From the NCBI GenBank assembly GCA_946699065.1, contig CAMPDV010002048.1, positions 19,035-83,034 on the forward strand: 64,000 nucleotides of DNA. Direction: 5' to 3'. A model generated the notes under the pieces. That model worked only from the letters and a program-made list of their open reading frames with translations, was not told the origin of the DNA and did not search any database. A program made the translations under genes and the position numbers. Origin of the DNA: Loxodes magnus. Lineage: Eukaryota > Ciliophora > Karyorelictea > Loxodida > Loxodidae. This document shows, piece by piece, positions 22,118 to 56,841 of this stretch; position 1 is the first letter of the stretch, and each line of letters begins with the position of its first letter.

Positions 22118-22145
22118 TTTTTTATATTTATAATTATAGAAGCAA

Positions 22146-26540: not shown

Positions 26541-27401
26541 ATGGAAGAAAAAACTAGTTAGGAGATAGTCAGTTTTATTACACTAAGCTAACGTATTATG
26601 GTATATAATTTCTTTCAGTCTTAGGTTTGGGAATTTTAAAATAAGATGGAAGAACTGAAAGAAGATGATGTGATTAGATTAGTTTCTTTCTATAATCTAA
26701 CTCACTTAGAAACTTTACACCTTCTATATTTTATTTCTAAATGAAACTTATTTCAAATGATTCCTAGTGAATAAAATCTAGAGAAAATAGTAGAGGCAAT
26801 CAAGCATCATAAAAGTAAGGGATTGTAGTATACTATCTTTAGCAAAATTTAGTTAAACAATGAGAGCATCTAAATAGAACTAAAAATGCTAGAATACTTA
26901 CTAAGTCATAATAAATGATAATAAAATTGTAATGAGAAGGTTAAGAATCTATTTGAATATTTGAATAGAAAGAAAGAAAATTAAAAGTCCATAACTAACT
27001 TGAAATAAAATAATCATTTATGGCTCAACAAATTGATTAAAACGAAAACCACTAAGAAAAACAAAAATAAGGGTTTACTAAACTGTGATAAACATATGTA
27101 AGATAAATTGGAAGAAAAACCTTTTAATACTCATGTAACTTAAAGTTAAGTTTATTCTGAAAAAAGTTCAGCATGCAACAAATATTAGCGAAAAAGCTAG
27201 AATGAGGCATCAAAAGATTATAACTAAACAGTATAAAACATTTCAAATCAAATGAGAAGAAAGTAAAATTAAGAATTAGAACTAAAAGTGATATTTCAGT
27301 ATGCTTTAAAGATGAAAAGAAGAAGAAATAAAGAAAGCCGCCTTTTAAGTTTTAACTTATTAGAAGAAAGTATTTTGAAAAGAAATAAGCAAAACCTATG
27401 A
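26541..27401 (+). CDS. unrecognised protein family, member 1 (286 aa)
   Basis: One open frame of 287 codons from ATG to TGA, needing TAA/TAG as Gln and two internal TGA as sense. It aligns along its length with the minus-strand gene at 42.8-43.8 kb: shared HLETLHLLY.SKWN, LKMLEYLLSHNK, NEKVKNLFEYL, VIFQYALKMKRRR. At the Trp of SKWN this gene has TGA (26742-26744) where the paralogue has TGG. The second internal TGA (after SHNK) faces a Glu codon. Basic and Lys/Asn-rich, no known domain, no signal peptide or membrane segment seen. Function unknown. It sits among gag-like genes, so it could be part of an element, but it lacks knuckle motifs. Confidence 0.65.
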
Positions 27402-28225
27402 ACTTTTTATTACTAAATATTAATTAAAAGTTTAATAACTAAGTAATATTAATTAATAGCTCTTTCAACTTTTCTATTAATTATATTTAAATAAATAAAC
27501 ATTAATTATATACTTATTGGCTTTTTTAAGAAAATTCAAGTTAAAGAGACTAAGTTAAATATTTAATATCTTAATGTTTATTAGTATTCAATAGTCACTA
27601 TGTATTTATACCCTTAAGTTTATATTTTTTTATCTAAGGTTGGTTATTAAGATTAAATGAAGGAATAAGTATTTGCAAATTAGTTTTTAGCTTAATTTTT
27701 CCATATTTCTAAGAAAGCTATCATTTAAATAACAATTAGGAGACATAGATATAAAAATAAAAATAAGGATTATTCCTTTAAAGACTGATAAGCTATTAAG
27801 TTTTAAAGTTAATATCTTATTTATTTAAAGAATCAAATGTTTTACTCTTTGTGCTTCTACTCTGTCACTTAGTTCTAAATAAAAGTATAATTAAACCCTA
27901 GCTCTTTATATCCTTTTGACATTAATTTTTTAGCTTTTCTTACTATACTATTAAAAGGGAAAAATCAGGAAATAAATTCTATTAGTGATATGTGATTTCT
28001 TTTTCCCTAATTTGAGAAATAAAGCTTAACTTAGATAATGTAATATAAAACTTTCTAAGGAATGTCCTTTACTTGAAAGACTCAAAAGAGAGAGTTGATA
28101 ATCTTTAAAAAGTATATTGGGTATATAAAGCAGATCAGATAGATCCTATAATCAAATGAAGCAAAATTTAAATAAACTTTCACTAAAAATTTCAAAAATT
28201 AAAGCAATAGAAACTTTCTTTTTCT
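27402..28225. other. AT-rich spacer
   Basis: No recognised gene or RNA. Confidence 0.35.
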
Positions 28226-28713
28226 CAGTCGAATAAAGAAGCGATAACAAAATGTTGGCTATCATAAAAAAAATAAAGTATTAAAAGATCGTTCTACTAC
28301 AATAATGAGAGATATTAGCATCAGATTAAATAAATTTGATGATTCTAACCCCTTCATAAATTAATGAAGAAGATAATTAAAAATTTTGAGAATAATAATT
28401 TTTCATAGACAAATAAAATGAAATAGAAGAGAAGGATTTATATTATGAGAATTTTCTAAGATAAATAAAAAGAGAGAATAAATCATAATTTATACTTTAA
28501 GAATAAAAAGGAAAATTGTTTGAAAACCAATAAAGAAAAAGCTAAGAAAAAGGATTTCCATAGATTCAAAAGATTTTTTATAAGAAACTATTACTAATAT
28601 TTTAATAGATTAAGAATAGTAAACTAATAAAACTTAAAAATTTGATGAAATATAAAATAATAAATTAAGATGCAACACATTCTGCTCTTAATACACTATA
28701 TAAGTACTTATGA
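28226..28713 (+). pseudogene. decayed coding region, acidic/lysine-rich
   Basis: Three protein-like blocks in different frames: one with VLKDRSTTIMRDISIRLNKF, one with NEIEEKDLYYENFLRQIK, and one with TNKEKAKKKDFHRFKRFF. Composition is like the gag-like proteins, but no knuckle is seen. Frames change at about 28365 and 28500. Most likely a relic; the boundaries and identity are uncertain. Confidence 0.3.
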
Positions 28714-29037
28714 TTTTTTCTTTAAGATGATAAAGATTATATTGCTTATAAAGATAAAAAAATATTCTTAATTGTTTTAAAAAAATTAAGAGGTAAATAC
28801 AACTTTTATAAACTTTTGAATTTAAGAAATTAAATTTTAGTATTTTGAAATATTTAACAATGAGATTAAAACTTTTTCGCAAAGCTTTTTATTTATTATT
28901 AAATAAGTCTATTATGAATCTTAATTCGTATATCAAATTAATAATTATACTTATTTTTTAGTAAATTTCATTTAAACTTAAATATATAAGATATTTATAT
29001 TTAAGTATTTAAGAGTTAGATGCTTTTAATTATAAGA

Positions 29038-29109
29038 TCCGAGGTAGTATAGTGGCTAGTATTTCTGCCTGTCACGCAGACGACCCGGGTTCAATCCCCG
29101 GCCTCGGAG
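29038..29109 (+). tRNA. tRNA-Asp (GUC), copy 3
   Basis: Complete cloverleaf identical in body to copies 1 and 2, followed by a T7 run. It starts a segment that is duplicated at 56.77-57.83 kb. Confidence 0.95.
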
Positions 29110-29931
29110 TTTTTTTAATAGATTTCTAAGAACAACTAAATATTTTAAACTTGATTAAAGTAATTCTAAGTTAATTAATTTTGAAGCTAAACCTCTTAAA
29201 AATATTAAACTATTTAGATTTGTTTACTATATGTTTACTAATATTCATTTTTATTTAAATATCATCCAGTTTCTTTATTAATTTTAATTTGACAACATTA
29301 TTTTCTTATATTAAGATTTTATAAAGTTTATACTTATAAACCTATATTTCCTATTTAAAAATCATTTCTTTATTTATTTTTTTATTTTTTATTATGTCAT
29401 GTAAAGACTTAAAAAGATATACAGACTTTTAGATGTTTAAAGCTAGAAAGTTATGAAGCAAATTAATTTTCTTATTCAAATAAAATAGATATGATAGTTA
29501 AACTTAATATAGTCCTCTTTAAGAGTGAAAATTAAAACTTAAAAGCAAAGCTTATAGCCTTTAATATTTTAAACTTTTTCTAGTAGATAAATAATAAAAA
29601 TATTAAAATATTATTGTATATTGACTTAGGTTTTATATGAGAAATATTAGTAAGTTTTAGAAGCTACTTGAGAAGTTAGAAAATGCTTAATATTTTTGAA
29701 AGCTTAAATTAAATTTTGTTAAATTATTTCATTTTCTATATTTTCTAATTTAGGTAAAATAAAAATTTTAAAATAATTAAAAAGTAAAAAATAAATAATA
29801 TTATTAGATATTTATGAGCTAAGCAGGTAGACAGAAACTAGAGCTAATTCCATGTTAAAAATAATTGAAAAACTATTAATAATTTATAGATAAAAAAAAT
29901 TTGAAACCTTAGAAAAATAATTAAGTCTTAA

Positions 29932-30266
29932 CTTTAATTAATTAATTTCAACTAAAAAAGTTTTATGACCGGAAACTCCTTTCTGATTGCACGACCCGAC
30001 GCTCTCTTTTTATGGAATAACGGGGATATCCTGTTTTGCTCCAAGCACAGCTGCTAGGGAGCTCCATCGCTATGAGCACCCAGGCTTCAAGCCCCTACCA
30101 AAAGCGGATAATCTCAAAGACAGCGTTCCCTTCAGAAAATGACTCTGACCAGGGACTTTCTCAGCGACAGGAAAGGAACTTGTTCCTAGCCATAAAACCA
30201 GAAAGTGTTCTCACGAAGGTCATTCTCAGCTCCCACCATCTTTTCAATTATAAGTCTTAACTTTAA
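29932..30266 (-). mobile_element. SINE-like Pol III element, copy B, with exact 16-bp target-site duplication
   Basis: The unit at 29948-30250, reading on the minus strand, is flanked by TAAGTCTTAACTTTAA at 29932-29947 and 30251-30266. It is about 85-90% similar by eye to copy A, including the 5' TAATTGAAAAGATGGTGG, the TCCCT...AGGGA hairpin, the terminal CTTTTTTAGTTGAAATTAATTAA and the overall length. A GCTCC...GGAGC hairpin that is perfect here is mismatched in copy A. The start of this unit pairs with its end (ATGACC/GGTCAT and CTTTCTG/CAGAAAG), so the RNA may close on itself. A 74-residue standard-code ORF inside it is a by-product. Confidence 0.8.
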
Positions 30267-30600
30267 ATTAATAGATAAATATTTACTCAAAAGTAAACAC
30301 ATAAAAGAACTATTTAAAATTTTTTAAAGGATTATATCAATAAAAATTAGTAGTCATGAGCTTTAATAAATTGTATAATTTACTATTTATGAAAAGTGGT
30401 GAAATATAGTTAAAAAATCTCAAAGAAAACTAATAATCAAATTAAATAACTATTTTAATATCTCTGAAATTTTTGCCAAACTTGCATATTTTAAGTTTAT
30501 AATAAGCAACATTTTCAAAGTTCATTTTCACAAAAAAATGTTTTAACTCATAATAATTAACATCTAATAAGTGAAGAATATTTCAATCTAATTTCAATCT

Positions 30601-32458
30601 AAATATTACTTATAGTTACTATTAATTTTGTCTTATTTCATAATATAAATTATTAAAGCGATATCTTTCTAGTATGAAGATAAAGCTTAAGAAATATAAT
30701 TATATAAGTAGGTCTAAGTTTCTAGTAGGATTATCAATTTTAATGCTAACAAGGAGATTTAATGAAGGTACTATTTTAATTTAGGATATTTTGTATAATT
30801 TTAAAATTTTAATAAAAGTAGATGAAGGAATAAAAGTTTGGTATCTCTTTTAGAAGAAAATATTAAAGCTTTTAGAATTATTAATGCAAATTATCTTTTC
30901 TAAGTTAGATTTTTTTAATTAAATTATCATTTTTTTAGTGAAATTATCATTAACTATCTCTAAAGATTCTATTTAATTTTAAATCAAATTTTAAGCTTTT
31001 ATTTTGTTTATTTGCAAATAAGGAAAATTTTCCATTCAATTATAAAGACCAAATATATAAAGCATGAGATTTAAAATGTAGAATACTAGTAAAATTAAAA
31101 AAATATTTACCAAAAATCAAATTTCAACTCAGTTTTACAACTACAAAGTCTTCTTAAATTCGTTATATTGATTATACAAATGAAAAAGTTTAGAAAAGTC
31201 TTAATCTTATGCTAAAAATAAATAAAAACCTTAGGCTTTCATATCCATTTAGTGTTTATTTAATAATTGTATAAAAAATCTGAATAAATACTAGGAAAAT
31301 TTAGTTTTAATAACGATTGTATCTAGTGCTATAATAATGATAATATAATTCTAAGAGTTATTAAGATATAAGTACTTAAATGTCTAATATCATTATAGTT
31401 ATTTAATCTATTTTGATTAATGTTTAAGAATAATAGTTATATTATATATGAAGTTAAAAAACTGGAAGTTTAATCTTTAGCTACTGTTCAATTTTTTAAA
31501 ATTTCGGTGAATTAATTTTGGAAATTTAAGTTACTTAAATGAACTAGGAAATTAGAACATTTTAAAGAAGGAAAAATTATTTAATACGTCTTACTAAGAG
31601 ATAGTTCTGCAGCTTCGCATTAACATTTAATATATAAAAGCTAAGCTCTTAGATAATTAGCTCTTGTTATAAAATTTCTATATTTGAGTGCTTTAAGAAT
31701 TGATAAAATTTAGAACTATAAATTTAATTTTAATTCCATTTGCTCAGTAAAATAGCAAAAAAATCCAGATAAAATCAAAATTTCTAATTATCTTAATTTT
31801 AGTTTTATAAAGTACTAGCTAGATAGTCCTAATAAAGGATAAAGCTTATTAAATAACATTTTCTAATTTATCTGAAATTTACAAGGAATCAGAAAAAGAA
31901 TTAGTTCATTAGCATCAAACAGAATATCTAGTACTTATATAGAATAAAGTAATTAGTTTTCTCCTTGTTTCTTAGATTTTTTTAAATAAAGTAAACATTT
32001 TCTAAAAAGAAAAAAAGTTTAAATCATAGAATAAAAATAGATAGAAGATAATAAAATTGTGGCAACATATTAAGAAGCTAGATTAAAAAACTATAAGAAG
32101 CTAGATGCTTTAAACATATAATCATTAATTTTATTTCTGTTTCGCCAAAAAAAAAAGCTTCAATTGAAGTATTTTCATATCTTCACTCTAACTATTATAA
32201 TTTTTTAATTATCTCAAAATTGCAGATTATAAAAGTCTGAAAGGCCTTCAAAGGCATTAAAAAGTTATCTTCCCGAATATTTCTAAATATGCTTAATGAA
32301 AGTTATTAGATTAAAGTACTAAATTGAATTTAAATAGAAACTAGATTATTTATGCTTTTGAAATAAATAAAGCAGCCTATCCATTAGCATTTTAATTTAG
32401 TAAAAGTTAAGAGTTCCTTTTATTTATTAATCTCATATTTTTTCATATTATAATAAAA
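30601..32458. other. AT-rich region upstream of zinc-finger gene 3
   Basis: No recognised gene. A block near 30.85-30.96 kb resembles 21.2 kb and (inverted) 3.15 kb, and the last ~400 bp resemble the upstream regions of the other zinc-finger copies. So this is a rearranged third version of the same duplicated neighbourhood. Confidence 0.45.
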
Positions 32459-33319
32459 ATGTAAAAGAGTTATGCTTAAATAAGAAACTTTGAAAATTTT
32501 TCTGACTTGAATGATATTTTCTTTAAGTAAAAAACTAGGAAAGAGAATTTAATTAGTTAGACATTAGATAATAGTTTAAGAAAGGTATAGATTAATATTC
32601 AGATTTAAATATATCAAACAAATTCTGTTGCTTCTGTTAAGATTAATGAAATGGCCACCTAAAATATTCAAAATTAAGTGATGATCTAGCAATTTTGTCC
32701 TGAAAATTCGAATGGAAATTTCGAAGAAAAGGATGTCTTACCATTTAAAGAGAACATTCAGAGCATTAGTCATTATATACCTAAAGATACAGTAGAAAAA
32801 TAAATGAGTTAGTAACAATTAAAAAAAGAAGAAAAATAAGAAGAGTTGACGCAAATTGCTCAAGATGTTTCTGATCTATATGAGATGTAAATAGAATTTT
32901 TCTGTGAGATTTGTTAAAAGTAATATAAGAATAAAAAAACTTATAACTCTCATGTCTAAACTAAACACAATGAGACTAAACCATTTTAATGCAACTTTTG
33001 TTAAAAAAGTTTCAAAAGACCAGATTATTTATAGAAGCACAAATAATCACATAATGAAGACAAAGAAATTACTTGTAACGAGTGTGATCAAAAGTTCAAA
33101 TCCAAGGTCACCCATGAAAAACATGTTAAAACAGTTCACGCAAAAATTGTATGTGGAACTTGCAAATGCTGCAACAAAGGATTCACTCGTATGGATTATT
33201 TAAAGAAGCATTTGCAAAGAGGATAATAAAACTATAAATGTATACATCAAGGATGCGCAAAAAGATTTTCAAGTAAGCAATCGATGGAAAGACACAATGC
33301 AGCAAAGCACTAAGGTTGA
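32459..33319 (+). CDS. C2H2 zinc-finger protein, copy 3 (intact, 286 aa)
   Basis: One open frame of 287 codons with TAA/TAG as Gln, ending at TGA 33317-33319. Same design as copy 1: acidic Q/N-rich N-terminal half, then five zinc fingers in the C-terminal half. Finger 4 again lacks its last His; finger 5 is CX4C. The finger half is strongly conserved and the N-terminal half only weakly, suggesting selection on nucleic-acid binding. The post-stop motif TTTTCGTATATA is present. Unlike copies 1 and 2, the neighbouring tRNA-Asp points toward this gene. Confidence 0.85.
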
Positions 33320-34497
33320 CATCTAAATTTTTATTTTCGTATATAAAGACCCTTAAATATAAGCATATAATAAGTCTTATATTTAGTCTTAAATTATTAA
33401 AGTTTTATTTAAAAGAACCTAATTTTAATTAAGATAAAAAGTGTATTAAAGATATAGAAGAGGACTTTCTATGAAACTTATGTTTATTAATTATATTCTC
33501 TTATTAAACTTCAAAAACGCTTATTTAAAATATTAAGCTAAACTTATAACTAAGGATGGAAATAAAAAAATTAACAATATAAATCAAAAATTCCTCTCAT
33601 AAATATAAGTAAAAAGATGAAGATTCTTTATTTTTTAAGATAATAAATTTATTAAATAATGCAATCTATAAAATCTTATTAATATATCTTAAGCATTAAA
33701 TAGTTTATCAGTAATAAAATTTTCTATGAAGGGAATTTAAAGCAAGTCTAGATCATATTACTATCTCTTTTCAAAATCAAATTAAAAGTTTATATTATAA
33801 AACTATAAATACTATCTAGATAAATTAAGTTTTTTGCTTATTATCTTTTAAAGTTTAGGTTGAGTTTTATATTAAAATGAATTTCATTTTAAACTAATTT
33901 TAAATATTCTTCCTTTGGAACATTTTGAAAATAAAAAATAAAATTTATTCTTTCTTTTGAATGAGTTAAAGAAATTTAATAGCAAAAAAGGAAAAAATGA
34001 AGAGTTAGTCTTAGATAAAAGTTTTAATTATTTTAATAAAACGATGATTTGATTGATTATAATAAAAGAAACTAAAGAACTTATATAAGATAATCAAGGA
34101 ATTTTAGCAGGGTAACTTTCAGAATTCTTTTACTAGATATAACTTTTGAAATATTCAAGTAATTCTTATCTTCTTCTAAAAGCTTTAAGATTAGTAAATT
34201 ATCTAAGAAAATAATTATTCATGCAAGGCTTTTATTATAAAAAACTCAAATAAATCAAATTTATATAGCCAAATATTTATAAGATACTAAAAGATTGCCT
34301 TTAGAAGATTCTTTTAATTAATCTAAAATCTTAATTTTTCAGATGATATTCTTAGATAAAATTTATTAATCATTTTTTTTATTTATAAATATTCCTCTCA
34401 ATTTATTATATTTCCATAAATATAGAGAATCGGCTTATATATTATTTTAAAATAAAAATATCATTGAATGCTTTTTTATTATTATATCATTTTTTTA
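33320..34497. other. AT-rich spacer
   Basis: No recognised gene; partial similarity to the region downstream of zinc-finger copy 1. Confidence 0.4.
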
Positions 34498-35009
34498 AAA
34501 TCGCCATAGTTGTTTGAAGGTGTACAACAAGGTCATCTTCATCAGAGGTTGGGGAAGTTAAGTACCCATAATCGACTTTATGTCTTCCTCTGCTTTGGTT
34601 TGGTCTCGAGACATAAGATTCTTAGACCTTCGACACTGGCTTGGCTTGGCTTCGTTTATTTTTAATTCTGGAACGAAAAAGAAATAATATTGCGAGCTTC
34701 ATCAGAGGTGGGGAATTTAAGTACCCATAATTGACACATGTCGTCCTCTTCTTTGGTGATGCAATGAGACACAATCCTGCCATGTCCTTGGACCTCCAAC
34801 AAGTAGAAAAGATTACGAGTATTCTTAAATTATATCAGTATTGAACATTTTTATCAGTACTGAATAATTATACCAGTATTGAACAAGGTCTACCAGTATC
34901 TGATAATTTTATCAGTAACAAACATTCTTGTCAGTATGAAACATTTTTTTTAAAGAGCTGCGCACCAACGAGAGTGCTACGCGCTCTATAATCAAATTTA
35001 TTTATTTAT
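34498..35009 (+). mobile_element. dimeric SINE-like element, copy A
   Basis: A GC-richer ~510-bp unit, repeated in reverse at 60.68-61.20 kb. Left to right: lead TCGCCATAGTTGTTTGAAGG; two related ~100-bp monomers starting CTTCATCAGAGG (34537 and 34697), each with GGGGAA(G/T)TTAAGTACCCATAAT and ending GACCT(T/C)C(G/C)AAC-like; an array of about six 19-21-bp units with core CAGTA (34832-34950); a hairpin AGAGCTGCGCACC...GTGCTACGCGCTCT; and a tail ATTTATTTATTTA. GAAGTTAAG in the monomers is also found in 5S rRNA, but overall 5S identity is not supported. No coding capacity. Flanking duplications were not found by eye. Confidence 0.75.
34832..34950 (+). repeat. 19-21-bp tandem array inside the SINE-like element
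   Basis: Six imperfect units with core (A/C/T)CAGTA(T/C) followed by TGAACA-, TGATAA- or AACATT-like sequence. The same array, reverse-complemented, is in the 60.7 kb copy, so it belongs to the element and is not a local expansion. Confidence 0.7.
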
Positions 35010-35387
35010 GAAAGAAAGAATAAATTAATAATTTTTAATCTAAAATAAGATTAATTATGCTTAAAGATTTATTAATTAAATATCAATATTATATTTTTTA
35101 TTTAAGGATTACTAATAAGTAGCTTAAGAAGATTGCTCGTATTTTATTTTAATTTATAAAATAAAAAATTGTCTAACTTAATAAATTTAAAACTAATTTT
35201 AGAAACTTAATTTTCTTAATTTTAGCTTTTTCATAATCAAACATTTATGTCCTATCTAATTATTTATTTATTTTATAACCTTCTTATAAAACTAATTTTT
35301 AAGAGTATAACTAGATTCTCAATTTAATTAACTTCATATATTTAAATTAATTGTTATATATAACAAGTTAAAATAAGGCTTCCTTAT
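35010..35387. other. AT-rich spacer
   Basis: No recognised feature between the SINE and the interrupted gene. Confidence 0.4.
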
Positions 35388-35558
35388 ATGAGATTCTCTA
35401 GCTTACTCAAGCTGTATATTGGAGTAGAAGGTACTAGATATTCAAGTAATAACATGGATGAACAAGTTTTTAGGCTAATTAAGCATAACTTGAAATAAAA
35501 TCCACTGTTTTGGTGTTCGATTGAGTAAGTGGACATCTATTTAGCGAAAATTTTCTAG

Positions 35559-36642
35559 GTAAGGCAAGGAAATATAAAATGGCTAGCTTCAAGAAGGGTT
35601 TTTTTACCACCTCCTCAGAACAGGAGAGAAAACCAGAAGCAAATATTCTCACTACGTCTTCTTCAACTTAACCCTCTTCTTAATAAAAATAACCAGAACA
35701 ACAAAATAAATTAGAAGAACTAATAAAAAATACTAAATCCTACAAATTTTAATAAAGCGGACTTCTTCCATCAAAGGAAAAACAGGAACTGAGACAAAAA
35801 TTCAGAACAAAAAAGTTGACAAAGCTCTCAACGCCTCCATTGAAAACTGAAAAAGAGACCACTCAACTGAATCGATAAAAATAACAACGAAGAAATAAAA
35901 AATAAACGAAGAAGGTAAAGTACGATAATTTAATACAGATCCTATTACCTTTGATTTAGACAACATTGAAATAGAACAAATGAACTCTGAATAGATGAAA
36001 CAGCTGATTCATCTACTTATTAGAAACATAAAAAAACTCGAAGAGGAATTAAACTCCCAGAAGGAAGAGATGCTTACAATGAGTCAGGATCTGATAAACC
36101 ATGAAGATGATGACGAAGTCCATATGGTAGACCGAAGAGCTAAAGTCGGAGTCTATGAGTCAATTTAAAATTTAGAGAATGATATCTGAGTAATGCAAGA
36201 GCAAGACGAGAAAAATTGAGTAAAATTAGATTCCAGACTTTATTTAATAGAAGAAAACCTGTAGAAGCCTTCTTAAGGAATTCCAATGGAAATAGAGAAA
36301 CAAGAAAAGATATTTCCTAGATCAAGGAAAAGATGTTACATTTACAACAGCACTTGACATCTATGGCGAAAATGTCCCCAATAGAAAAGAATAAGAATGA
36401 ATATTTGGAGTAATATTAACTATTAGCAACTGAAATGGCGAGTGATGGAATTCTTCCCATCGGGAAATGGGAAAATCTGGAAAAAAAATTCTTAACTCAG
36501 ACTATTAAAAAGAGAGAAGTCCAGAAAAAAGAGCACAAGGAACGAACATGCAGGAAAAGAGATTTTATAAATTTAAAACTTCAAATAAGCCGGAAGGCGA
36601 ACAGTTATTTTAATTATTTAATGATTTAAAGTAGGGCAAGGA
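35559..36642 (+). mobile_element. gag-only retroelement, copy B, with 12-bp target-site duplication
   Basis: The unit 35571-36630 is closely similar to 10701-11757 along its whole length. Flanks are GTAAGGCAAGGA (35559-35570) and GTAGGGCAAGGA (36631-36642), one mismatch. Both the start (TAAAATGGCT) and the end (TTTAATTATTTAATGATTTAAA) match copy A, so the boundaries are mutually confirmed. It is inserted in the sense orientation into an apparent protein-coding gene. Confidence 0.85.
35579..36630 (+). pseudogene. gag-like CCHC protein (copy B), frame broken and knuckle damaged
   Basis: Same product as copy A, starting MASFKKGFFTTSSEQERK. Here the T run near the start has the in-frame length, but an A run near 35850 is one base short (five A against six in copy A), which shifts the frame; the coiled-coil A run is in frame. 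In the knuckle the second Cys codon TGC has become TAC. A CGA found in copy A has become TGA near 36187. The last TGA of copy A is TTA here. So this copy has decayed at a zinc ligand, which homopolymer error cannot explain. Confidence 0.7.
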
Positions 36643-37764: not shown

Positions 37765-37824
37765 AAATAAATAAATAAATTTGATTATAGAGCGCGTAGC
37801 ACCTCGTTGGTACGCAGCTCTTTA
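37765..37824 (-). mobile_element. 3' tail fragment of the dimeric SINE-like element
   Basis: The minus strand reads TAAAGAGCTGCGTACCAACG, then the GTGCTACGCGCTCT arm, then ATAATCAAATTTATTTATTTA: the last ~60 bp of the element at 34.5 and 60.7 kb. A strongly 5'-truncated insertion is the simplest explanation. It begins 6 bp after the TGA of the kelch gene on the same strand, so it now forms that gene's 3' end. Confidence 0.75.
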
Positions 37825-37830
37825 CATATC

Positions 37831-39519
37831 TCAATATATGTCAGTTTCTTCAAGTAAACCTTCAGGTAATAGAAATTCTTCTCTTATTAGTTCCATATCT
37901 TCATCATTTTCTTCTTCATTATCTCTTGTTCTGCTGTCTTCTATCTATCTACGTTTTATTGATTCTTTATTACAAGCGTCCATTATTTTTTCTTACATAC
38001 TTTGCTAATTTTCGTTTCTAATTATTTTCTTCTTGATCAAGTTTTTATACACTCATAAAAATTATCCATTCCCTGTTCTATAATATTTTCCTATTTCTTT
38101 TTTTTGATTCAATTTTCTTTTCTATATATAATAAAAATCTTATATAAGTTTATAATTTTATTTTTAGTAGCTTTTCTCTCATTCAATCTTCTACCAAAAT
38201 CCATTGCTCAGTGTATAGTAAAATAAGTCTGTATCAAAGTCAAACTAATATACTTGCTTTTTATTTCTATTTGCAAAGTAAAACAATTTTAATTTCCTTA
38301 AAATGATTATCCATGCTTTATTATCTATTTTCTAAGTTTTTCGTATAAATTAATCCAGAATTTTTACTTTGTAAAAAGCAAGAATCACAAGAATATTATT
38401 TGATAATTGACTTTTAAGCAGCAATCATTTGTTATTTATTAAATCATACATTTAAATTTTTTTTTATGAGTCGAAGCCTCCAATCACGAATATTTCGTTT
38501 AATAATCAATAAAGGCTCCAAAATATGATGCTGGATATATTATATTTTAAATTTATTTAAATGTTTGACTATTTTTATCAAAAACTTCACATTAATTAAC
38601 GTAATCTGAATAATATCCAGAAATTATAAAAATATTCTACAAGTGATTGCAAATAGTTCCATGATTATATCTACTAAACTTCATTTAAAAGTATCCTTAT
38701 TTTTATTTTTAGTTATTTAAAAAACTAAACTTTTGCCATTTTACTCACTTCCAGATATTAATAAAACTTATTCTTCTATTTGCTCTATTTAAGTATTATC
38801 GAATCTTGTCTTTAAAATATCAGTTTAAAATGTTTTAATTTAAGTTTTTCTAAATTATAATCTTTCCTGGTTTTAGTGTAGCTTTTTATATATGATGCAT
38901 TTTAAATTCCTTAATATCTACTTTTTTATTAATTTTCCACTATTTTCTTCTGTCTACTATTTTACAATTAAGCTTCTTGTAAGATGTTTTAACTTGTTGA
39001 TTATTTTTATTCTTATAAGCTTTACAAAAATATCTTAAAATTTTGCTTGAAAAATTCTAAAAAATACTCTAATTTTTATATTTACTAGACTCCATGAAGC
39101 TCTACTTTCTCATAGAATTTTCAGTTAATTTCTTGCTCTTTACTGTCTTCAAATTCGATTATATCTTTCTCTTCTATAAATTTTCTAAAAACAATTTAAA
39201 GTATCTAATTTATTAGCTGGCTTTATCTTAAGAACTTAATAGCTTTTAAGAAGTAGAATCCTTAAATAGAGTTTAGTACATCAAACTAACAGCACTCCAA
39301 ATGAAGTGGCTCGAAGTTTATTAATCTTCTGAAGAATTTGTTTATTTTTTCCGTGCTGCATTTAAAGTTTCTGATATGTATCTTTTATTGCTTCCTTCTA
39401 ATTTTATTGATTAATCTAGTCCTCAACTATTTATTTATCCTGCTATAAATTTATTGGGTGTATATTGGAGATTTACTTACAATTGGAGAAGGAACAAATA
39501 ATTTATTAATTTGTTTCAT
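37831..39519 (-). CDS. kelch-repeat protein (about 562 aa, start uncertain)
   Basis: One open frame on the minus strand from ATG 39519 to TGA 37831-37833, with TAA/TAG as Gln and seven internal TGA. A clear kelch repeat lies at about residues 345-375: LLNEIFVIGGFDSQKKIQMY, then DLINNKW, with the hydrophobic strand, Gly-Gly, Tyr-Asp and final Trp in kelch spacing. That Trp codon is TGA (38425-38427). A degenerate second repeat may follow (ending NKAW). The C-terminus is acidic (EEENDEDMELIREEFLLPEG). Kelch repeats form beta-propellers for protein interaction; the partner is unknown. The N-terminal half has no recognised domain and the frame stays open above the chosen ATG. An adjoining kelch-like reading upstream suggests a tandem pair. 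Confidence 0.65.
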
Positions 39520-39838
39520 ATTAGTTATAAATACAGCTTTAGCATAGAGTATGAGAGCATGGGAATTTTAGAGGAATGTGTCTAAGAGCATCGAATGGAT
39601 ACTAGCAAGATGCACACTCCTGCCTTAGTGACATTTTAATATTAGGATAGTAGGATGCTAGAATAAATATGATTTATATAATTTAGAAATACGTGGATTT
39701 TGGTGAACTTATGCTAGCTGTTTTATTTTAAAATTATATTATAAATAATTAATTAATCTTTGGATTCTTTTTCTAGATATAAATCCCAGAGTTAAAATTC
39801 CTTTTTTGTAATTCCTAAAAAGAAAAAAAAATCCTCAT

Positions 39839-42806: not shown

Positions 42807-43790
42807 TCATTTAGATATATTTTAAGTTTTTCTTGTAAACTTTACATCTAAAATTTTTTTAGATATAGGATAAATAAACATTTGCTTTATTTTTAATTTT
42901 TAAGTATAGGTATTTAAAGTTTATGCTTTAATTTTGAATAATTAGTAAAAAAAAATTTAAAAGCTGTCTAGTTATTTTAAAATCTCATGAGTCTTTTTGA
43001 TTCTCTTCACAGGGCTATCTTCTAATTGGTTTAACCTATGAAGATAATTCTCTTTATCTCTACTTCTTTTCATCCTAGAAAAATACTGAAATATCATTTT
43101 CATTTCTTCTTTATTTTATTTTCTTTTCGATTATTTTGAAAGTTTTTCAACTATTTGGTTATAATTTTTTAATCCAGCACTCTATCTTTATTGCAAGTAT
43201 TTATTTTATAGTAAACTCCTATCAGGATTAATTTTACTTTAAATAACTGGAGTATTTAAGGGCATAATTTTAGATGAATCCTAAGTATATTAATTATAGT
43301 TTAGTTTGTTGTCTTTATTTATGTTCCTCAAATTTCTTCTAATTTCAATATCCTTTTCTAATACTTATTGAGTGCTTCCATGCAAGCTAGTAATATATTT
43401 TTTATTTCCTTTCTTGCTACTCAAGTACTAAAATAAGTCTTTAACCTTCTCATTGTAGTTCTATTATTCCTTATTATAACTTAGCTAATATTCTAGCATT
43501 TTTAGTCCTATTTAAATATCCTCATTGCTTAACTAAACTTTGATATAATTAATATATTTGAATCCTTTGCTTAAATGTAGCCGGATTATTTCTATAGCTT
43601 CCTTTAAATCACTTCGACTTGGTCTTTTCTCCAATGGGTTCCATTTAGATAGAATATAAAGAAGATGTAACGTTTCCTAGTGGTTTAACTCATAAGAAGC
43701 TATCATTTTAACTACATCAACTTCATTCAGTACTTCCTACTTATCTTTACATAGCTAAACCTTCTACTAAAAGAAGTTATTTACCATCAT
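42807..43790 (-). CDS. unrecognised protein family, member 2 (about 327 aa)
   Basis: Paralogue of the gene at 26.5 kb. A frame from two adjacent ATGs (43790) to TGA 42807-42809 contains no internal TGA. Matches include VNNFFQ, HQETLHLLYILSKWNPLEK (Trp = TGG at 43641-43643), LKMLEYQLSYNK, NEKVKDLFQYL and MKMIFQYFSRMKRSRDKEN. Alignment with member 1 may extend further upstream (about 43.86 kb) without an ATG in frame, so the start is open. The C-terminus is about 35 residues longer than member 1 and its end is less certain. No known domain. Two independent, frame-preserving copies make it a genuine protein family. Confidence 0.65.
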
Positions 43791-43991
43791 ACGCTAATCT
43801 ACCGTAACTTAATTGGCAACTAAACCAAATTCATTTATTCTTTCATCTTATAAAATGCTGTAAATTCTCCTTTTCTAGAAAAGTCTAACTTAATTCTAAT
43901 AAAAGCTATTGGCATCGTAAAATAAACTTTATTTAACTAAAAAAACTAAAATTTCAATAAAAACTAATAGACTTAGATATGTATACCTTAT

Positions 43992-46900
43992 ATGAAAAAT
44001 AGCTTTGATGATTTACTTGCTAAACACAGAGAAAAATTAGTAAAAAAGAATCAAAATGATAAAATAAAGAATTGATATAGATGAAATGATTATAGCATAT
44101 CTAGAGCTTTACATTTGTATAAATTAGCTTTATACATAGTGAGAAAGTATTTGTATGAAAGAGCATATTAAAAATACAAGCTTTTATTTAGTTTAGAAGT
44201 TATAGAAAGTTTTTTTATCTAGCTGTAAAAACATTAAATAGCTTATTTTACAATTAAAAGAATGAATTTTGATAAAGATTCATATTCCTTCATTAAATAA
44301 ATTAGTTAAAGTTAATTTTCATAAAGCATACCTTTTATATAGTCAAAAATAATATTGCTTGCTAAAAGAAAAAAAATGATCTAAATAAGAAGTTTAGAAA
44401 ACTAAGAAGCGAATTGTAAAATTCCTAAATGAATTTCCTATTATTTTATTTTAAAATTCCGCAGAATTAGATGCTTGCAAAAATAAAATTTAAATAGGAT
44501 AAATTGTATTAAATTCTTAGTTATAAAATGTCAATAACAATACTTATTAATGCTAGTTTAAATTAAAAGTACTGTGTAATAGAAATGAGTTAATAAAAGA
44601 ACTCAAATGGTTTATTTTGATGACTAAATTAAATACACAACTCAATTAAAATTCAGAAATATGAAAATAAAATTTAGTAATCTAAATTCGGAATTTATAC
44701 TAAATTAATTAAATAAAGCAAATGAAATTAAATTGTTTCATATAAGTAAAGCATAATTAAATAGTAAATGACAAGTTACTTTTTTACTTAGATTCTAATA
44801 ATTACGCCTGAAAAATTAAAAAATGTTAAAAGTGATGTTTGATGCAAATGATTCAAACTAATTAAATAAAATAATTGAGCAACAAAATAATTAGAATTGT
44901 TTAAAAGATTATAATTTAAAAATAATACCTAGGCATAAAGTAAACTATTGTAGATGCTTAACTAATTAAAATTTAATTTTTTTATTATGCTTTGATAATA
45001 GAGTCAATTATTAAGTATATATATTTTCAGGAAACGATCTTAAATGAAGGAATAAAAAAACAATTACGATATACAAAAAAGACTTGCTGATTCTTGAATT
45101 AATTTTAAAGATACTTAAACGATAAATATTTGAATCTTTTTTAATTCAATTAAATAATGACTTCAATGATAAAATTTCTATTTGATTATTTTCAGAATGT
45201 CAATAAGAATAATTTTGATTAACTTTAATTTCTATAATTTTAAAAATTTTTAATTGATTTAAATTATTATTTCATCTCCATGATTGGTAATTTATTATAA
45301 GATCCTATTTTTTATATTATTTATGCCATTCTAATCTTTAAATTTTATACCTTTATTTACTAAATTTCCTAAATATTTATTAAGCATTATGATTCTCAAC
45401 GGAAGCTAGATAATTTTCCATGCTATAATTGAATAAAGTTTTAAGCAGATTTAGATGTATAAAGATGTGAAAAAAGTTAAGAAATTATGTTTAGTAATTA
45501 ACTTAAAAAAGTTTGATTAATAAACTAAAATAATTCTTATATATTCAAACTCTTTTAGTGGCTAAAGTAGAAATTGTTCAGTTTATAAATATAAAGATTC
45601 ATTATAAAAATTATCTTAAAGAAGCCACTTAAAAATTAAAAAATCTAGAATCAATATAAAAAATTAAAAGAATCAAATAAAACACAAGCAATATTTATAT
45701 ATATATAAAAGTATTGGCAAAAATAAAGCTTAGATTGAGTTATTAAATTCTTAAAATTATAATTAAGGTTTTATAAAAAGATTTTAGTTTGCTATGTTTG
45801 ACTTAAAAAATAAAAGTAAGCTACTAGCAAAAAATTTAATTTTTTATAAGTTTGACAAAGAAATTCTTAAAAATATATAGCAAATTTAAATTTGCTCGAC
45901 TTTTCTAAAAGTTTCATTGATGGTTATTAAATATGCTAATTTTTTTATTTTTGCAATCGAAAAAGTCTCTTGCTTTTGCTGTATATAGATATTAGTTTTT
46001 TGTACTTAAAATAGAAATATCTTGCAAATTAAATTTTCTTTATAAATTTAGTGCAAAACTTTTCGTTCTAGTTTATTGATAAAAAGTGTGTAATACCATC
46101 TTTAGATTACCTAAGACTTTATAGAAATTATTTAAAACAAAGCGAATCATAAACTTTAAAAACTGGTATTAGAATGGAAGAAGATAACTATAAAATAAAT
46201 AAAAAGATTCTTTTGATATGCAATAGAATGAACTCTTTGGAAGCATATTAATACTGAACTATTAATTTGAGGAATTAGCAATTTAAATAAATATTAACTA
46301 AAAGATTTTGTGTTTGAAAATGTTATAATTAGCAATCCAAATTTTTATGGGATGAAGGTTTAAACTAAATATGAGCATTAATATGTAAAACATGACTTTG
46401 ATAAGGATTTATAAAAAATCATAAAAGCAGTTTATGAAATCTCATTTCGAATAACTCAACAAAAATTTAAAATAAATTATAAAGATTCAAATGATTTAAA
46501 AAATAGCAAACTTTGTTGTATTTTATCAACAAATTATGTAGTGAAAAAATTAAAATTTTTAATAGATTTATAAATTAAAATATATAAAAGAGATTATTAT
46601 TTTTATAAAAAATACTATTAAAGAAATAATTAAAAAGTATTAAGAAATACTATAAAAAGAAATTTAAGTTATGCTTAATATTTTAATTGTTGTAGATTGA
46701 GATATTCTACAAGCTTTAAAAAAGTTAAAGGTATCAGAGTTTAGGAACAAAGATTTTTTGTTGAAGATAATTCACAAACTTGATTTAATGATAATTAAAG
46801 GTAATAAATAGCAAAGTCAAATTTTAAAAGTATTTACCTTATAAACAAATTTAAGGGTTGGTTTAAGATTTTGCACTTTTTATAATTTTTTTTCATTTTC

Positions 46901-47158
46901 TTAACTCAATTAAAAGAAAAGATAAAAAGGTATAAAATTAAAAAAAATTATGATATAAATGATAGAATCTTTAGACTAAAATTTATTTATTTCATAAAAA
47001 TAATAATGGCTATAATCTCAAATATAAATTTCATTATTTATTTAAAAAAGTATTAGATATTTAAAACAACTGAGATAGATAGAACCAAATAGAAAGCTTA
47101 AGAAGTTACATATTTTATCTCTGTAAAATAATTGTAAATCTAATTTAGAAAACAATGA
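43992..47158 (+). CDS. long hypothetical protein (about 1,050 codons, one probable frame break)
   Basis: From ATG 43992 (MKNSFDDLLAKHREKLVKKN) a coding-like frame runs to about 46.29 kb. Coding character then continues in another frame (VFENVIISNPNFYGMKVQTK, DKDLQKIIKAVYEISFRI, FDKAQ-poor but FNDN-type text) to TGA 47156-47158. TAA/TAG are Gln and roughly a dozen TGA read as Trp. Strand-like blocks such as NLIFLLCFDNRVNYQVYIFS are propeller-like but too weak to name a family. Composition is Lys/Ile/Asn-rich. The frame change may be an indel, or two genes may abut here. Alternative frames in parts of this region are also open, so confidence is moderate only. Confidence 0.4.
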
Positions 47159-47733
47159 ATTAATTAAAATCAGATTTAAGAATTTTCATATTAAGATATA
47201 TTAAGAATAGAGATACCTATAAATGATTTTCTTAATAGAATAGAACATCTTCGTTTTAAAGGTTTTGCTTGAAGCATTCCCTAAAAATATAGAAACCATA
47301 TAAAATGCTTATTTTTAATATTAATAGTATCTGTTAAGTGAGATAAGCTGAATCATAAAACTTAGTTTTAATTGGAAAGTTTCCAATTTTAAAGCTATAT
47401 AGTTTGGTTTGGGATTACCTAAGAAACTTATATAAAATTTAAGCTAGTGTGAAAGGCAAATCTTAGTACCAATTAAAAAAAATAAAATTTTTAAATTTTT
47501 AAATTTTTAAAATTATTACAGCAATAGACAAATCATTTTAATTATTGCTCTACCTTATCAAGAATATTTGATTTAAGAAAAGTCTATAAATAATTTCTAA
47601 ATTTTATTATGTTGATACTAATGAAATAATTTGAAAATAATATATATCAAAAATGAAAAAATAGTTATATAGATATTTTAAATTAAATTGAGATAAGCTT
47701 ATTATATATAATATTTTAGTAATTAATAAAAAA

Positions 47734-47806
47734 ATGAGAAATGGTGTGACAATCAGCACTTTGGATTATAATCAAGCAATTGTAATTCGATGCTCCGTTG
47801 AGGCAA
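47734..47806 (+). pseudogene. decayed tRNA-Gln copy
   Basis: Clear remnant of the tRNA-Gln genes: ATGGTGTGACAATCAGCACTTTGGA against ATGGTGTAACGGTTAGCACTTTGGA, then AATTCGATGCTCCGTTGAGGCAA. The acceptor stem, anticodon loop (TTATAAT in place of CTTTAAA) and T stem are all damaged, so it cannot be functional. Confidence 0.7.
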
Positions 47807-48859
47807 AAACCAAATTTTTTAAAAGAAAAAATTACTCTAAACTAAAATAAAAATCTGTAACTAGCTTAAAATAAATTTGCTTATAAACCTACCTAAAAAG
47901 ATTAAAGAAGATACAATTTAGGTAAGCATCCTGTCTTTAATAAAAGCATACAAAAAATATAATTAAAATTGGTAAAGAAGCTAATTTAAATATTGTGAAT
48001 TAAAAATAAATCTAGGTCTAATAATTAAACCTAAACAAATCATTAAGAAATTGATAGAATACAATGTGAAAATGTAATAAAAATAAAAGCAGATTGTAAA
48101 CCTTATAAATTTATTAGATCTTAGCAATCATAAAAATAAATTATTTTGCTATATAGCATGAAATAATAGGAAATTAATAAGTTTAATTGATTCTGCATTA
48201 AAAAGGTCTTGAAATTAATTACTATAAATATAAATACCTTTCTATTAAAATTTAACTTAGCTTCAATTAATCTAATGTAATCAGCAAAAACTTCTTCAGA
48301 AATATTTATTTATATAGTGTAAAATCTCTCTTTGTATTTACCTATGAAATAAAAATAAACTCTATTTTTTCATCTTAATAAATGAAATGTAAATTTCTTA
48401 AATATTAAGCATATCCTGCCTTAGTTAAAAAACTTAATAATTTTTATTATGTAAATAAAAAGATTCTTAAACAGACAATAAACAAATCAGAACCAAATTA
48501 AATTCTTCCTTATGAAATCACTAAATATTTGTAAGTTAGATTTAAATAAAAATTTAGATCAATAACTTAAAAATACAAATACGATTAAATACCTTCATCT
48601 AAAATACTTTAAAATCTAAAAAACTATTAAAAAAATTTATCTTTAAGATTTGAAAACAAATAGAGAAAAAAAGGAAAATTAAATTTAAAATTTTCATAAT
48701 AAAAATAAAGAAAAAAAATTATTAAAAATGTGCAGGTGAAAGTTAAAAAAAAATCTAAAATATATAATAAATAAATTTTAAGCGAGAAGAACGTTAAAAA
48801 AATCTTAATCAAAAACATTTTTTATTAAATCTAATTTCTTAATATTTCATATATAATAT
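47807..48859. other. AT-rich spacer
   Basis: No recognised gene or RNA before the LINE. An A-run-dominated reading on the minus strand near 48.63-48.82 kb is compositional. Confidence 0.4.
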
Positions 48860-48886
48860 AAAACTTTTATTTCAAAAAAAAAAAAA

Positions 48887-51412
48887 ATGGACGAAATATA
48901 GAATTCACTAGTTTTTAATAGTGACTCTTCTTTAATTAATTTCAAAGAAGCTGCAAATTCATAGGAAAAGCATAGGCAGGTGCATTAAAATCTCCAAACG
49001 AAAGATTTGGAGTAACTACAAATTAAATAAGTAAACCTAATAATGAATTTATTAAGACAACTACTTAAAAATTGTAGTCCAAAAACCGGAAAAACAAATT
49101 CATACGCGTCCCATTAAAACTACTTAGGAACTCTCTTCAACGTGGATATTAATTGTAGCGTATTATGAAAGTGAAATCAACCTATAAATAGATGAACAGA
49201 TTAACCGCCTAAAATAATACCGCGAAAGATACGAAACGATTACCTAAGAAATCTTTCCAAAAATAAGATATTATCTTAGATAGTTAGAATTCAAAAGATA
49301 TACCTTCAAATCCTAATTAAAATTCAAATAAAGATATCCTTTTATGGTAGTCAAAAATAACATAAACTTAAGATTAATTTTTGAATAATACTAATTAACA
49401 ATTCTATTAAATTTCAAATAACGAAATTAATCAGAAATAAAATAATACTACTAATCCTGATAATTCAAATAATCATTATTTACCTGATCTTCAGAGCAAA
49501 CAAGCTTAAAATTAAACTGCTGATTTAAGAAATGTAATATAAAATCAAATAATTAATTAGTCTAATGAGAATTTATTTACCTTAGAAATAAAAGAACTTA
49601 AACATAATATATAAAGACTTATAGATAAGAACCAATAATTAAATGAAATGTTAATTAATATAAAAGCAAAATATGAACGAGATATTGAAACATTGATAAG
49701 TAACTAAGAAATATCCAAAATATATTATAAAACTTATATAAATAAAATTTATTAGAAATATAAACAATTATAGAACAATTTTTAGTCAATCAAATCTGAT
49801 ATATAGCAATATCACAAAAAAATGCTATCAAAATAACTAGTTCATAAAATTACTTAAACAAACTTCTCCACTTATTACAGTAACTAAATAGTTTAAAACA
49901 GATGAAATAATTAGTATATTTCAAGAAATTTAGATATAATAGAAAAACTATGAGAATTAAGTCAATTCAAAATATGAAATATAATCTAATTAAGAGATTC
50001 AAATTGAAGCCAATGCTAATTAAAGCTTTACTTAAGCTTAAATGATAGGAGCAAATAAATTCACTATGCCAAAACTTTAATAAAATTAAAAATTTTACTT
50101 AAATTGAAATAGATAACTTTCTAAATAAAACTTAGCAAGGATATCAATAGACTATATTAGAATAGAACTAATATTTACTTCAACAAATTACCTAATAAAA
50201 AATAATAACGAAATTTAACTCCAAGAGTTATATTCTTAATATTAAAAATTATAAAACTAAAATAAGTAATTTATAGATTAAGAATAGAAAGCTTAAATGG
50301 AAATTTTAACTTTTAAAATCGAATTAGATAAGTAAAGATAATAAAATATGAAATAAATATAGCTTTTCAAAATTAAATTCTATTAAAAAATAAGGAAATT
50401 CAATGTATAAAGAATTATTTTAGAATTAAATCTAACATACAAAAGAATTCAGTAATTAATAGTAATTTTAGAAGAAGTAATTTGTAGATGCATAAACTTA
50501 GACATTATATGGAAATATTTAAACAAAGGATAGTATTATCTAAACAGATAATATAAATAAATAATAAACAGCTTTTTTGTGTCAAAAATTTACTCAAACA
50601 AATATAATCAAGCAAGACAAGTTATGTAAACTTAAAATAATTAATAGGAAGCATAAACTAATACTATTATAACATAACATAATAACTAATACTGTCAAAT
50701 AAAATTGCCAGATGAAGATTTTGTTTTACTATAGCATTAATATCACTAACTCAACTTAAAATTCATTTAAAGTACCCAAAATATGTAGACACTTGAGATA
50801 AAAATAGAAGAGTTTTAAAAACTTAATTAAAATTTGAAAAAAGATATATTTAATTATTCTACTAAAAGATGAAAAAAAGATTAATAAAACTAAACAGATT
50901 CGATCGATGCTATTTATCAGAATTAAGCCTTATCTTCCAATATTAATCTTAATATTCTTAAAAGGAAACATGAAGAAGAAGATAAAACAATTCCGCCAGC
51001 AAAACGTATGAGTAAACATAATAATAAAAAAGAGTGCGATTAAATAATATGTTATTTCAATCTGACTAGTCTATAACTTTAAAAGTTTATTAAATCCGAA
51101 ACTTGAAGACGGCCATAGTACGAAATGCACAATATATAAGGTAGATATGTCACAGTTACTTAAGATTTAGAATAAGGTACATGTGATAGTGTGAAAAGTA
51201 AAATTGATATAGATAGAAAGCTACTTAAAAAATATACGACGTAAGTAATATATATTTTGATACAATATTTTCATTAACATCCTGAGTATGGAAAAAGATT
51301 AGTACATATTTAGATTAACCAATAAGGATAGAAAAGCATTTGCATTTACGAAAGTGGTCTATCTGCAGGCTCGGAAAAAATTAGAAAGGACTAATAAATT
51401 TAAAAAATAAAG
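48887..51412 (+). pseudogene. LINE ORF1: Asn/Gln-rich coiled-coil protein, frame broken
   Basis: Starts MDEIQNSLVFNSDSSLINFK. A one-base shift near 48975 leads into KAQAGALKSPNERFGVTTN, and an Asn/Gln-rich stretch then a coiled coil follow (LKHNIQRLIDKNQQLNEML, YERDIETLISNQE; about 49.58-49.75 kb). Later blocks include IKLPDEDFVLLQHQYHQLNL and a basic segment KRKHEEEDKTIPPAKRM. From about 50.69 kb the frame runs directly into ORF2 with only TGA codons in the way. So ORF1 and ORF2 could be one polyprotein or be separated by the TGA near 51105. No CCHC knuckle seen. Presumed RNA-binding partner in the retrotransposition complex. Confidence 0.6.
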
Positions 51413-54400
51413 ATGGGACATATAAATATTAATGGAATAGCGAGCAAGTGCTTGAATATTGAAGAATTTATCAGAGATAACAGTATAGATATTTTATCAA
51501 TAAACGAAACCTGATAAAAAGATGACTTTCCTCCGATATTGATAAATGGATTTAAAACATATTTTAAGAACTCAGGAAAAGGAGGAGGTGTATGCTTAAT
51601 TGTAGGAGAAGAATTTAATAGTACAGAAATACATATATAAGTTGAAAAAGAAATAAATAGATTCATAACAATTAAACTGGATAATATTTTAATCACGTCT
51701 TGTTACATGCCTGATAATGGAAAAAGTTAAGATGTTAAAGATTTAGCTTATGAACAACTAAATACATTGCTGAATTTATATAATGATAATCCACATATAC
51801 TAATGGAGATTTCAATGCTCTTTTATAAGGCTTCGGTGATAATCCTGAAAATGCTTATGATAATAACATTAGACTATAAGAATTCTTACTATAAAACGAT
51901 CTTGAGATAGTGAATGATAGCAACATTAATACATGTATTCACAAAGGAACAGGAAAAACGTATTATAATGATTATATCATTATAAACAACCATTTGAACG
52001 TTAATTAGTTTGCAAATTTCACTGCTCATAATAATAGTTTATTTTCTGATCATATTCCAATCACTGTCGACTTTATCAATAATTCTATAGTATATTGGGA
52101 AAAGATAACTCAGAGAAAATATAAAATAAATAGGTTATAAGATGCAATAGATAGATAAAAATATTAAGAATCTTTCCTACAAACTTATCTAGAATTCTTT
52201 CAAATAGATTAAGATAATCTTGAAGATTAATATGAATGCATCAAAAGTAATATTTAAGACAATGCTGATCAAACATTAGGTTCGTTTATTCCAGATTCAA
52301 ATTATAACAAACTTCCTCGAGCTCTCACAAAAAAATATATAGAGGCAAAAAGAACTAACTCAGAATATAAGGAAGCTCACGTAAGATTTGGAAGAATAAA
52401 CTAGCAAGTAACTAATCTTCATGAGGAAGCAAAACGACTTTGGAAAGACTTCAAGTATAATCTATGAAAATTTAAAAAAAACAAGCAAAAAAGAAATTTC
52501 TACTTCTTAATGGAGATTCTAGGGAAATTTTTTCACAGGCTAAGAAAATTCTAAATCCTTTGAAGAGAAATACTATGAACTTTAATTAAGAAATCAAAAA
52601 TAAATTCATTGAATCATGGGAAAATTGTGTTTTTAACAAGCATTATAATCTAACTCAAGAATAGATAAATCTTAGTAATTAAAAAATAGATAAAATATAC
52701 GATAATATTTAAGAAATTAAAGATTATCCACTCTCGTATTTGTAAGGATTTGATCTTTTTACCATAAAAGAAATCTAAGAAATTATAAAAGAAATTCCGA
52801 ATGGAAAAGCAGCTGGTCCAGATGGAATAAAAGGCGAACTTCTGAAATATGGTGGATAATATTTATTAATAATTCTTCATTCTTTTCTGAATAATATGCT
52901 AAGACTTGGAAGAATCCCTTAGGAATTAAATATATCGGTGATAATTCCAATATTTAAAAAAGGAAATAAAGATGATTGGAAAAACTGACGACCTATTTCT
53001 CTTATTAATACTATTCTAAAACTATATGATAAAGCTTTAACAAAAAGATTATACAATCTGATTTATTAGAGAAATTTGATTCACCCTTCATAAATGGGAT
53101 TTATGAAAACAGATAAACAACTTAATAAATTTGAATAATATAACAAATAATTGATAACTATCGGAAATGTGCTAAAGGTAAGACTAAATTGATAGCAACA
53201 CTGATAGACGTTGAAAAAATGTTTGACTCAATAGAAAGAAGACTCTTGTTTGATTAACTTAAGAGAGTTAAACTACCACTTGGAATAATAATAGCCTTAG
53301 AATCGTTTTATAAAAAACCTAAATTCTTCATTTATCATAGATGGTAAGAGCACCAGAACTTTATAATTCAACAATGGAGTTATGTAAGGAAGTTCTCATG
53401 GACCAGTTTTAGCATTATTGTATTATGACATAGTAATTAGATATCTGGAAAGTAAAAGTAACTAATTGGGATTTAAATGCCAGGATTCAAGTATTAGCTT
53501 CGCTTGTAGAGGATGGGCAGATGATCTTATTCTTCTTTCCAAATCTGCAAAGTAGATGTAGAATTTAATAAATGAAGCAAATAAAGTTTTTGCATGAACA
53601 CATTTAAAGATTAATGTTACCAAATCCGAATGCATCTAATTTCTAAAGAAGAATCAGAAATAATAAATTTTAAATTTATGATTAGGAAATTAACCAATTG
53701 CTTAAAAAGAACAAGTAACATATTTAGGAGTTATTCTACATTAGAAGAAGAACTTAAATCCCCATTGCAAAGAAACTGCATTCAAGTATATAGCTGCAAT
53801 GAAGAAAGCTGTTTTTTAACTGATGAGATATAAGAATGTAACTCCTTGACATTTTAAAACTTTATGTAGACTTTTTACATTACCTAAAGCAGAATATGGA
53901 GGAGACTTAGTACCATGAAGTATTCAAAAAGGAGTAACTGGAGTTCTGAACAGAATAGAATCAAGCATGAGATTAATTTCAAGAAAAGCTTTTTAAGTAG
54001 CAACTTCAACATTTAATGAATCATGTTATATAGACCTGAATTGATTACCCTTTAAGCACATTATGGCTATAAAATTCTTCAGATTCTACCATAAAATTAA
54101 ATAAGAAAGTACTGATTTTCCAAGATCAACAATAGGCTCTCTTTTCATTAATATATGGAAAAAGGATTTCAATACTACGATTAAGTGTAGCAATTATCAG
54201 ACCTTTATAATATCGATCTGCAGAATTAATAGAATAATACCAATCTTAAACTTTTACTAAACATGTAAGAGAAAAAATACAACAATATTTCTACAAAGTA
54301 GCTACTAAAAAATTTATGAGGATGAAAACAGCTAAAGTATATACTGAATAATTTGGTAATCTTTAACAATTTCCACAAATTACTTAAACTAAATTAAACA

Positions 54401-56768: not shown

Positions 56769-56841
56769 TCCGAGGTAGTATAGTGGCTAGTATTTCTGCC
56801 TGTCACGCAGGACGACCCGGGTTCAATCCCCGGCCTCGGAG
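56769..56841 (+). tRNA. tRNA-Asp (GUC), copy 4, with one extra base
   Basis: Same as the other tRNA-Asp genes except for an extra G after the anticodon stem (CACGCAGGACGACC), giving 73 nt and a longer variable region. All stems still pair, so it may function. Alternatively the extra G is an early sign of decay or a sequencing error. It begins the segment duplicated from 29.04 kb. Confidence 0.8.

Follow-up and report, generated by a model that had tools for sequence, protein, structure and literature searches.

Features of the 64 kb window

The DNA analysed, referred to here as the window, is a 64 kb stretch with a G+C content of 22.7% (bases 19035-83034 of contig CAMPDV010002048.1). It contains two C2H2 zinc-finger genes, a pair of coding-like paralogues, a kelch repeat, two decayed LINE ORF2 copies and tRNA genes. 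An earlier note on this DNA had proposed that UAA and UAG (UAR) encode Gln and that UGA means Trp or stop according to its context. It cited TGA codons starting at 23984, 26742, 51512, 52986, 54042 and 62135 on the forward strand and lying at 38425-38427 on the reverse strand, together with a TGG at 43641-43643 on the reverse strand. All of these codons are in place, but several of the examples are weaker than they were presented.

The paralogues, A (26547-27296, forward strand) and B (43077-43811, reverse strand), were searched against Pfam and no family was found for either. Their alignment covers 244 codons with dN 0.36 and dS 0.78, values at which constraint on the protein is visible. At 26742-26744 (forward strand) paralogue A has an in-frame TGA at a Trp position where B has the TGG at 43641-43643, and this example holds up in the alignment. 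A second in-frame TGA in paralogue A, at 26916-26918 (forward strand), was absent from the note; it faces GAA (Glu) in B and counts against the Trp reading. It also favors a Tetrahymena-type code (table 6), in which UAR is Gln, UGA is stop only, and internal TGA codons are products of retroelement or pseudogene decay, TGG to TGA being a common change. The 12 aligned pairs of Gln codons comprise four TAA/TAA, three TAA/TAG, two TAG/TAG, two CAA/TAA and one CAG/TAG. The mutual replacement of TAA, TAG, CAA and CAG at these sites supports the assignment of UAR to Gln. Two other coding-like stretches, 22020-22440 and 29940-30240, have translations that look alike by eye and are perhaps inverted repeat copies.

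The TGA at 38425-38427 (reverse strand) occupies the conserved Trp of the kelch repeat. The Pfam Kelch_1 score was 14.3 bits with TGA read as X and 21.1 bits with TGA read as Trp; of these two readings the second passes the cut-off of 20.1 bits, and the note's kelch example holds up. At the zinc knuckle cited for the TGA at 23984, the one Pfam hint was to zf-RVT, below threshold (E 0.031), and it stops just short of the codon. The two C2H2 zinc-finger genes are open frames when TAR is read as Gln, one at 4989-5978 (forward strand, TGA end at 5976-5978) and the other at 32300-33319 (forward strand, TGA end at 33317-33319). Both do end at TGA and lack internal TGA, but the absence is uninformative because neither has a TGG, and hence a Trp codon of either kind.

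Two tRNA genes in the window have the anticodon TTA and read UAA. In the one at 210-281 (forward strand), labelled tRNA-Stop by ARAGORN, the anticodon stem has a single A-C mismatch; in the one at 8396-8467 (forward strand) the acceptor stem has a single T-C mismatch. Judging by their likeness, both are presumably tRNA-Gln. The window also includes four tRNA-Asp(GTC) genes (2129-2200, 22046-22117, 29038-29109 and 56769-56841), three of them identical and one with a base inserted after the anticodon stem. Their upstream flanks are partly similar, and the set is perhaps a dispersed tRNA-derived repeat.

Codon meanings in protein kinase and aminotransferase genes

Taken alone, the examples in the window suggest a dual UGA. 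The decisive tests were those made in genes elsewhere in the assembly (705,730,643 bases in 7843 contigs). Protein kinase domains were compared by codon fit, using 70 of the 136 listed matches, namely the 50 best and 20 chosen for their many TGA codons. All three stop codons were masked, and each codon was left out of the columns against which it was scored, so that TGG was unable to score Trp. Using 92 of 92 TGA cells in the 70 domains, TGA fitted Trp by 401.5 bits, and the next residue was Phe with 44.3 bits. The same 70 domains gave 222 bits for Gln versus 121 for Lys at TAA, and 169 for Gln versus 68 for Lys at TAG. Together with the exchange of CAR and TAR between the window paralogues, these values support the note's assignment of UAR to Gln.

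Where one residue made up at least half of a column, TGA faced Trp in 48 of 53 cases and TGG in 62 of 68; this count kept 74 of the 92 TGA cells, sparse columns being omitted. At the invariant kinase Trp (column 219) the 70 domains have TGG in 36 cases, TGA in 28, Tyr in three and Phe in three. Column 285 has 18 TGA and 15 TGG among 38 domains, and column 323 has 26 TGG and 20 TGA among 57. There were exceptions: one of the two TGA codons of gene L023 lies in a non-Trp column rich in Phe and Tyr, and the lone TGA of L012 is also in a non-Trp column.

UGA encodes Cys in Euplotes. Nothing was found to support that meaning here, and its probability is negligible: Cys does not rank among the top four residues fitted to TGA in the kinase domains, TGA stands at the invariant kinase Trp, and the codon fit refutes the Cys reading.

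A kynurenine-aminotransferase-like gene (L096), which we read as adjoining a Pelota-like gene, has a TGA at a Trp kept in all four displayed PDB alignments, these being near-copies of two enzymes. A second TGA in the gene lies at an unconserved, non-Trp place. The earlier note had named, as the finding that would speak against it, that TGA should never mean Trp outside decayed retroelements; in the kinase and aminotransferase genes TGA faces Trp. The same observation stands against the table 6 reading, as does the pattern of the kinase columns, since random decay would hit Cys, Arg, Gly and Ser columns too, whereas 48 of the 53 TGA codons in conserved columns face Trp. Unless all of these genes are pseudogenes, a UGA that is stop only is ruled out, and we regard that code as extremely improbable.

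UGA at the ends of genes

Seven of the kinase genes (L009, L014, L018, L019, L023, L027 and L029) have a C-terminal EF-hand-like motif, and in each a TGA follows 4 to 12 codons beyond the last conserved motif. We read these genes as calcium-dependent kinases, a name assigned by us and by no tool. Both eRF1 paralogues described below end at TGA, followed by one or two further in-frame TGA within six codons, and the aminotransferase gene also terminates at TGA. UGA is thus a stop in seven EF-hand-like kinase genes, two eRF1 genes and one aminotransferase gene.

An aggregate statistic was calculated for the 17 of 30 loci with a clear coding end, the other 13 being left out. Of the 17 genes, 9 had a TGA within 10 codons of the predicted end (P 1.6e-4), 9 had a TAG (P 8e-4) and 6 had a TAA; as TAG is as frequent as TGA near the coding ends, the statistic is not specific to TGA. 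The table 27 code is further marked by short 3'UTRs and by a scarcity of sense UGA in the roughly 20 codons ahead of the stop. The 25 codons upstream of the 17 predicted ends included three TGA in 425 codons, too few to judge depletion.

The presence of TAG near these ends, and the frequency of TGA as a sense codon, would suit a code in which UGA is wholly reassigned to Trp and termination depends on another codon or on none. This alternative appears very improbable in view of the TGA that follows the conserved C-termini of the seven EF-hand-like kinase genes and both eRF1 genes, and of the fit of TAA and TAG to Gln; in addition, UGA is the sole stop according to the part of PMC11441545 available to us. 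Both kinds of UGA occur in the same genes. In L023 and L029 one TGA lies inside the gene, at a Trp column, and another soon after the coding signal ends. L036 has two internal TGA at Trp columns and a TGA soon after the coding signal, although its end is less clear. The codon meanings, and the existence of genes with both kinds of UGA, are therefore shown from conserved genes, and the note's inference that UGA is Trp or stop by context is supported across the assembly by the kinase, aminotransferase and eRF1 genes.

UGA in LINE elements

The two LINE ORF2 copies in the window, at approximately 51440-54700 and 60500-63900 (both forward strand, limits set by eye), are decayed, because the reading frame changes along them. 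The first contains the in-frame TGA codons at 51512, 52986 and 54042, among others, and the second has at 62135 the equivalent of 52986. These codons were compared with a profile built from 120 outside LINE-like proteins, dropping cells of low posterior, which kept 238 of 284 LINE TGA cells and 11 of 17 window TGA cells. The note had read four of them as Trp. For 52986 and 62135 this was not borne out, the profile giving Tyr a probability of 0.86 and Trp 0.77 bits. At 54042 Trp is enriched (2.96 bits), but Ile is the commonest residue in the 120 proteins. The codon at 51512 falls within a sub-threshold Pfam endonuclease match (E 0.048). Several other TGA codons of the window LINEs face positions where Lys is the commonest residue.

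The LINE copies of the assembly gave a similar picture, with most TGA positions facing non-Trp residues in outside LINEs. Normalised scores for TGA, again with cells of low posterior dropped, were 0.81 bits for Phe, 0.63 for Trp and 0.53 for Tyr, while TGG gave 2.0 bits for Trp; ranked by Trp excess, TGA was only sixth among the codons, below TGG and those for Tyr and Phe. The non-Trp positions and the broken frames of the window copies are on the side of decay under table 6, the code that the kinase and aminotransferase genes speak against. Where a column had three or more TGA, the top alternative codon was TGG (34), followed by AAA (28) and TAT (24); where it had three or more TGG, the top alternative was TGA (29). 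These counts include both window copies. Two columns, with AAA or TAT in 23 copies and TGA in three, contribute most of the AAA and TAT alternatives. The exchange of TGG and TGA agrees with Trp, though taken by itself it is weak, and the TGA codons of the window LINEs are compatible with the dual code as weak evidence for it.

The 150 scored reverse-transcriptase matches have 3 to 9 in-frame TGA apiece, mostly 8. One LINE copy (L001) keeps a single frame across 862 codons, and alignments with outside LINE-like proteins cover as much as 96% of this copy; frame changes were seen in other copies. Head-to-tail arrays of LINE reverse transcriptases with an even spacing of about 2.5 kb were noticed at C5131:5395-26349 and C20:2028-7877, and these are either tandem copies or an assembly artefact.

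TGA accounts for 172 of 197 Trp codons in 24 related reverse-transcriptase copies belonging to three clusters, and for 19 of 21 when one copy per cluster is taken. The share in host genes, measured in the flanks of the kinase genes, is 73 of 116, an upper bound in that the flanks may include the terminal TGA. A preference of LINEs for UGA over UGG as Trp codon, beyond that of host genes, is a lead rather than a result.

Avoidance of UGA by the host genes was also considered, from a first hint in the 50 best-scoring kinases, where TGA makes up 40 of 131 Trp codons and the A-ending share is 0.77. The idea was dropped because ranking by profile score penalises TGA; in the flanks, outside the scored domain, the 73 of 116 just given compare with 0.74.

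tRNA-Trp and eRF1 genes

One gene for tRNA-Trp(CCA) was found, at L099:1494-1566; its anticodon stem has five pairs and its T-stem an extra base. About 700 bases away lies a tRNA-Met gene (L099:719-791), and the acceptor, the D-arm and the unusual T-arm with an extra base are common to both. No tRNA-Trp with a UCA anticodon was found in the window or in the 99 fetched loci (251,522 bases). A 4-bp anticodon stem is cited for the tRNA-Trp of Loxodes, from another source, in the text available from PMC13092985 and PMC12005148.

The assembly has two close eRF1 paralogues (L097 and L098), about 35 kb apart on the same contig and encoding nearly identical proteins. In eRF1, NIKS and a second motif that includes YLC are recognition motifs. 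Compared with the best solved-structure match, the eRF1 of 3j5y chain A, L097 keeps NIKS, immediately preceded by Gln in place of Ser; six residues after NIKS it has Ala where the match has Ser, and in the second motif it has FLC in place of YLC. No conclusion is drawn from these changes because single eRF1 changes do not track codes, as stated in the part of PMC4967479 at hand.

A wider proposal would combine the LINE lead with the tRNA gene: LINEs would write nearly all Trp as UGA, more than their hosts do, and Loxodes would decode UGA with a normal tRNA-Trp(CCA) with a 5-bp stem and an altered eRF1, not with a 4-bp-stem tRNA. We consider this combination unlikely. If it were true, UGA-rich LINEs would be translatable only in hosts with such a code, and they would be the messages most dependent on how tRNA-Trp and eRF1 compete.

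The code and its relation to known systems

The best account of these results, with a probability of about 0.97, is that the source of the DNA is a karyorelict, very probably Loxodes magnus, using the table 27 code, in which UAA and UAG are Gln and UGA is both an internal Trp codon and the stop. How one triplet could serve both purposes may be proposed from the literature. Inside the message tRNA-Trp would outcompete eRF1 at UGA, and near a short 3' end and the poly(A) tail eRF1 would win. Translation would then be the default, and eRF1 would be favored where UGA lies near the end of the transcript, a scheme derived from what the consulted portions of PMC4967479 and PMC11441545 say.

The dual use of UGA departs from the rule that each codon has one meaning, as a single triplet is an amino acid codon and the sole terminator. 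The case is known and important. Context-dependent UGA has already been published (NCBI table 27; genetic code 27) and hence is not new. What is added here is that conserved genes in one assembly confirm it from genomic sequence, as well as corrected examples from the window and one checkable discrepancy, the stem of tRNA-Trp.

That discrepancy separates our case from read-through of the Blastocrithidia type. As that system is presented in the accessible text of PMC13092985 and PMC12005148, UGA is Trp and the tRNA-Trp has a CCA anticodon, as here, but the anticodon stem of that tRNA has 4 bp, whereas the one tRNA-Trp gene found here has 5 bp. Condylostoma magnum and Parduczia sp. share with our case a UGA that is both sense and stop, and the excerpts of PMC4967479 propose for them a default sense reading with termination near transcript ends. 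For Condylostoma the same excerpts report that a tRNA-Trp with a UCA anticodon was not detected and that all three codons may stop, whereas in the genes inspected here TGA is the only end. The closest match is the karyorelict code itself. In the portion of PMC11441545 on which we rely, karyorelicts use NCBI table 27, with UGA the sole stop and yet Trp if it is far enough from the poly-A tail. We found no difference from it in the code, and Loxodes as described there and the assembly analysed here have in common a UAR that is Gln, a UGA that is Trp or stop and a LINE-rich genome.
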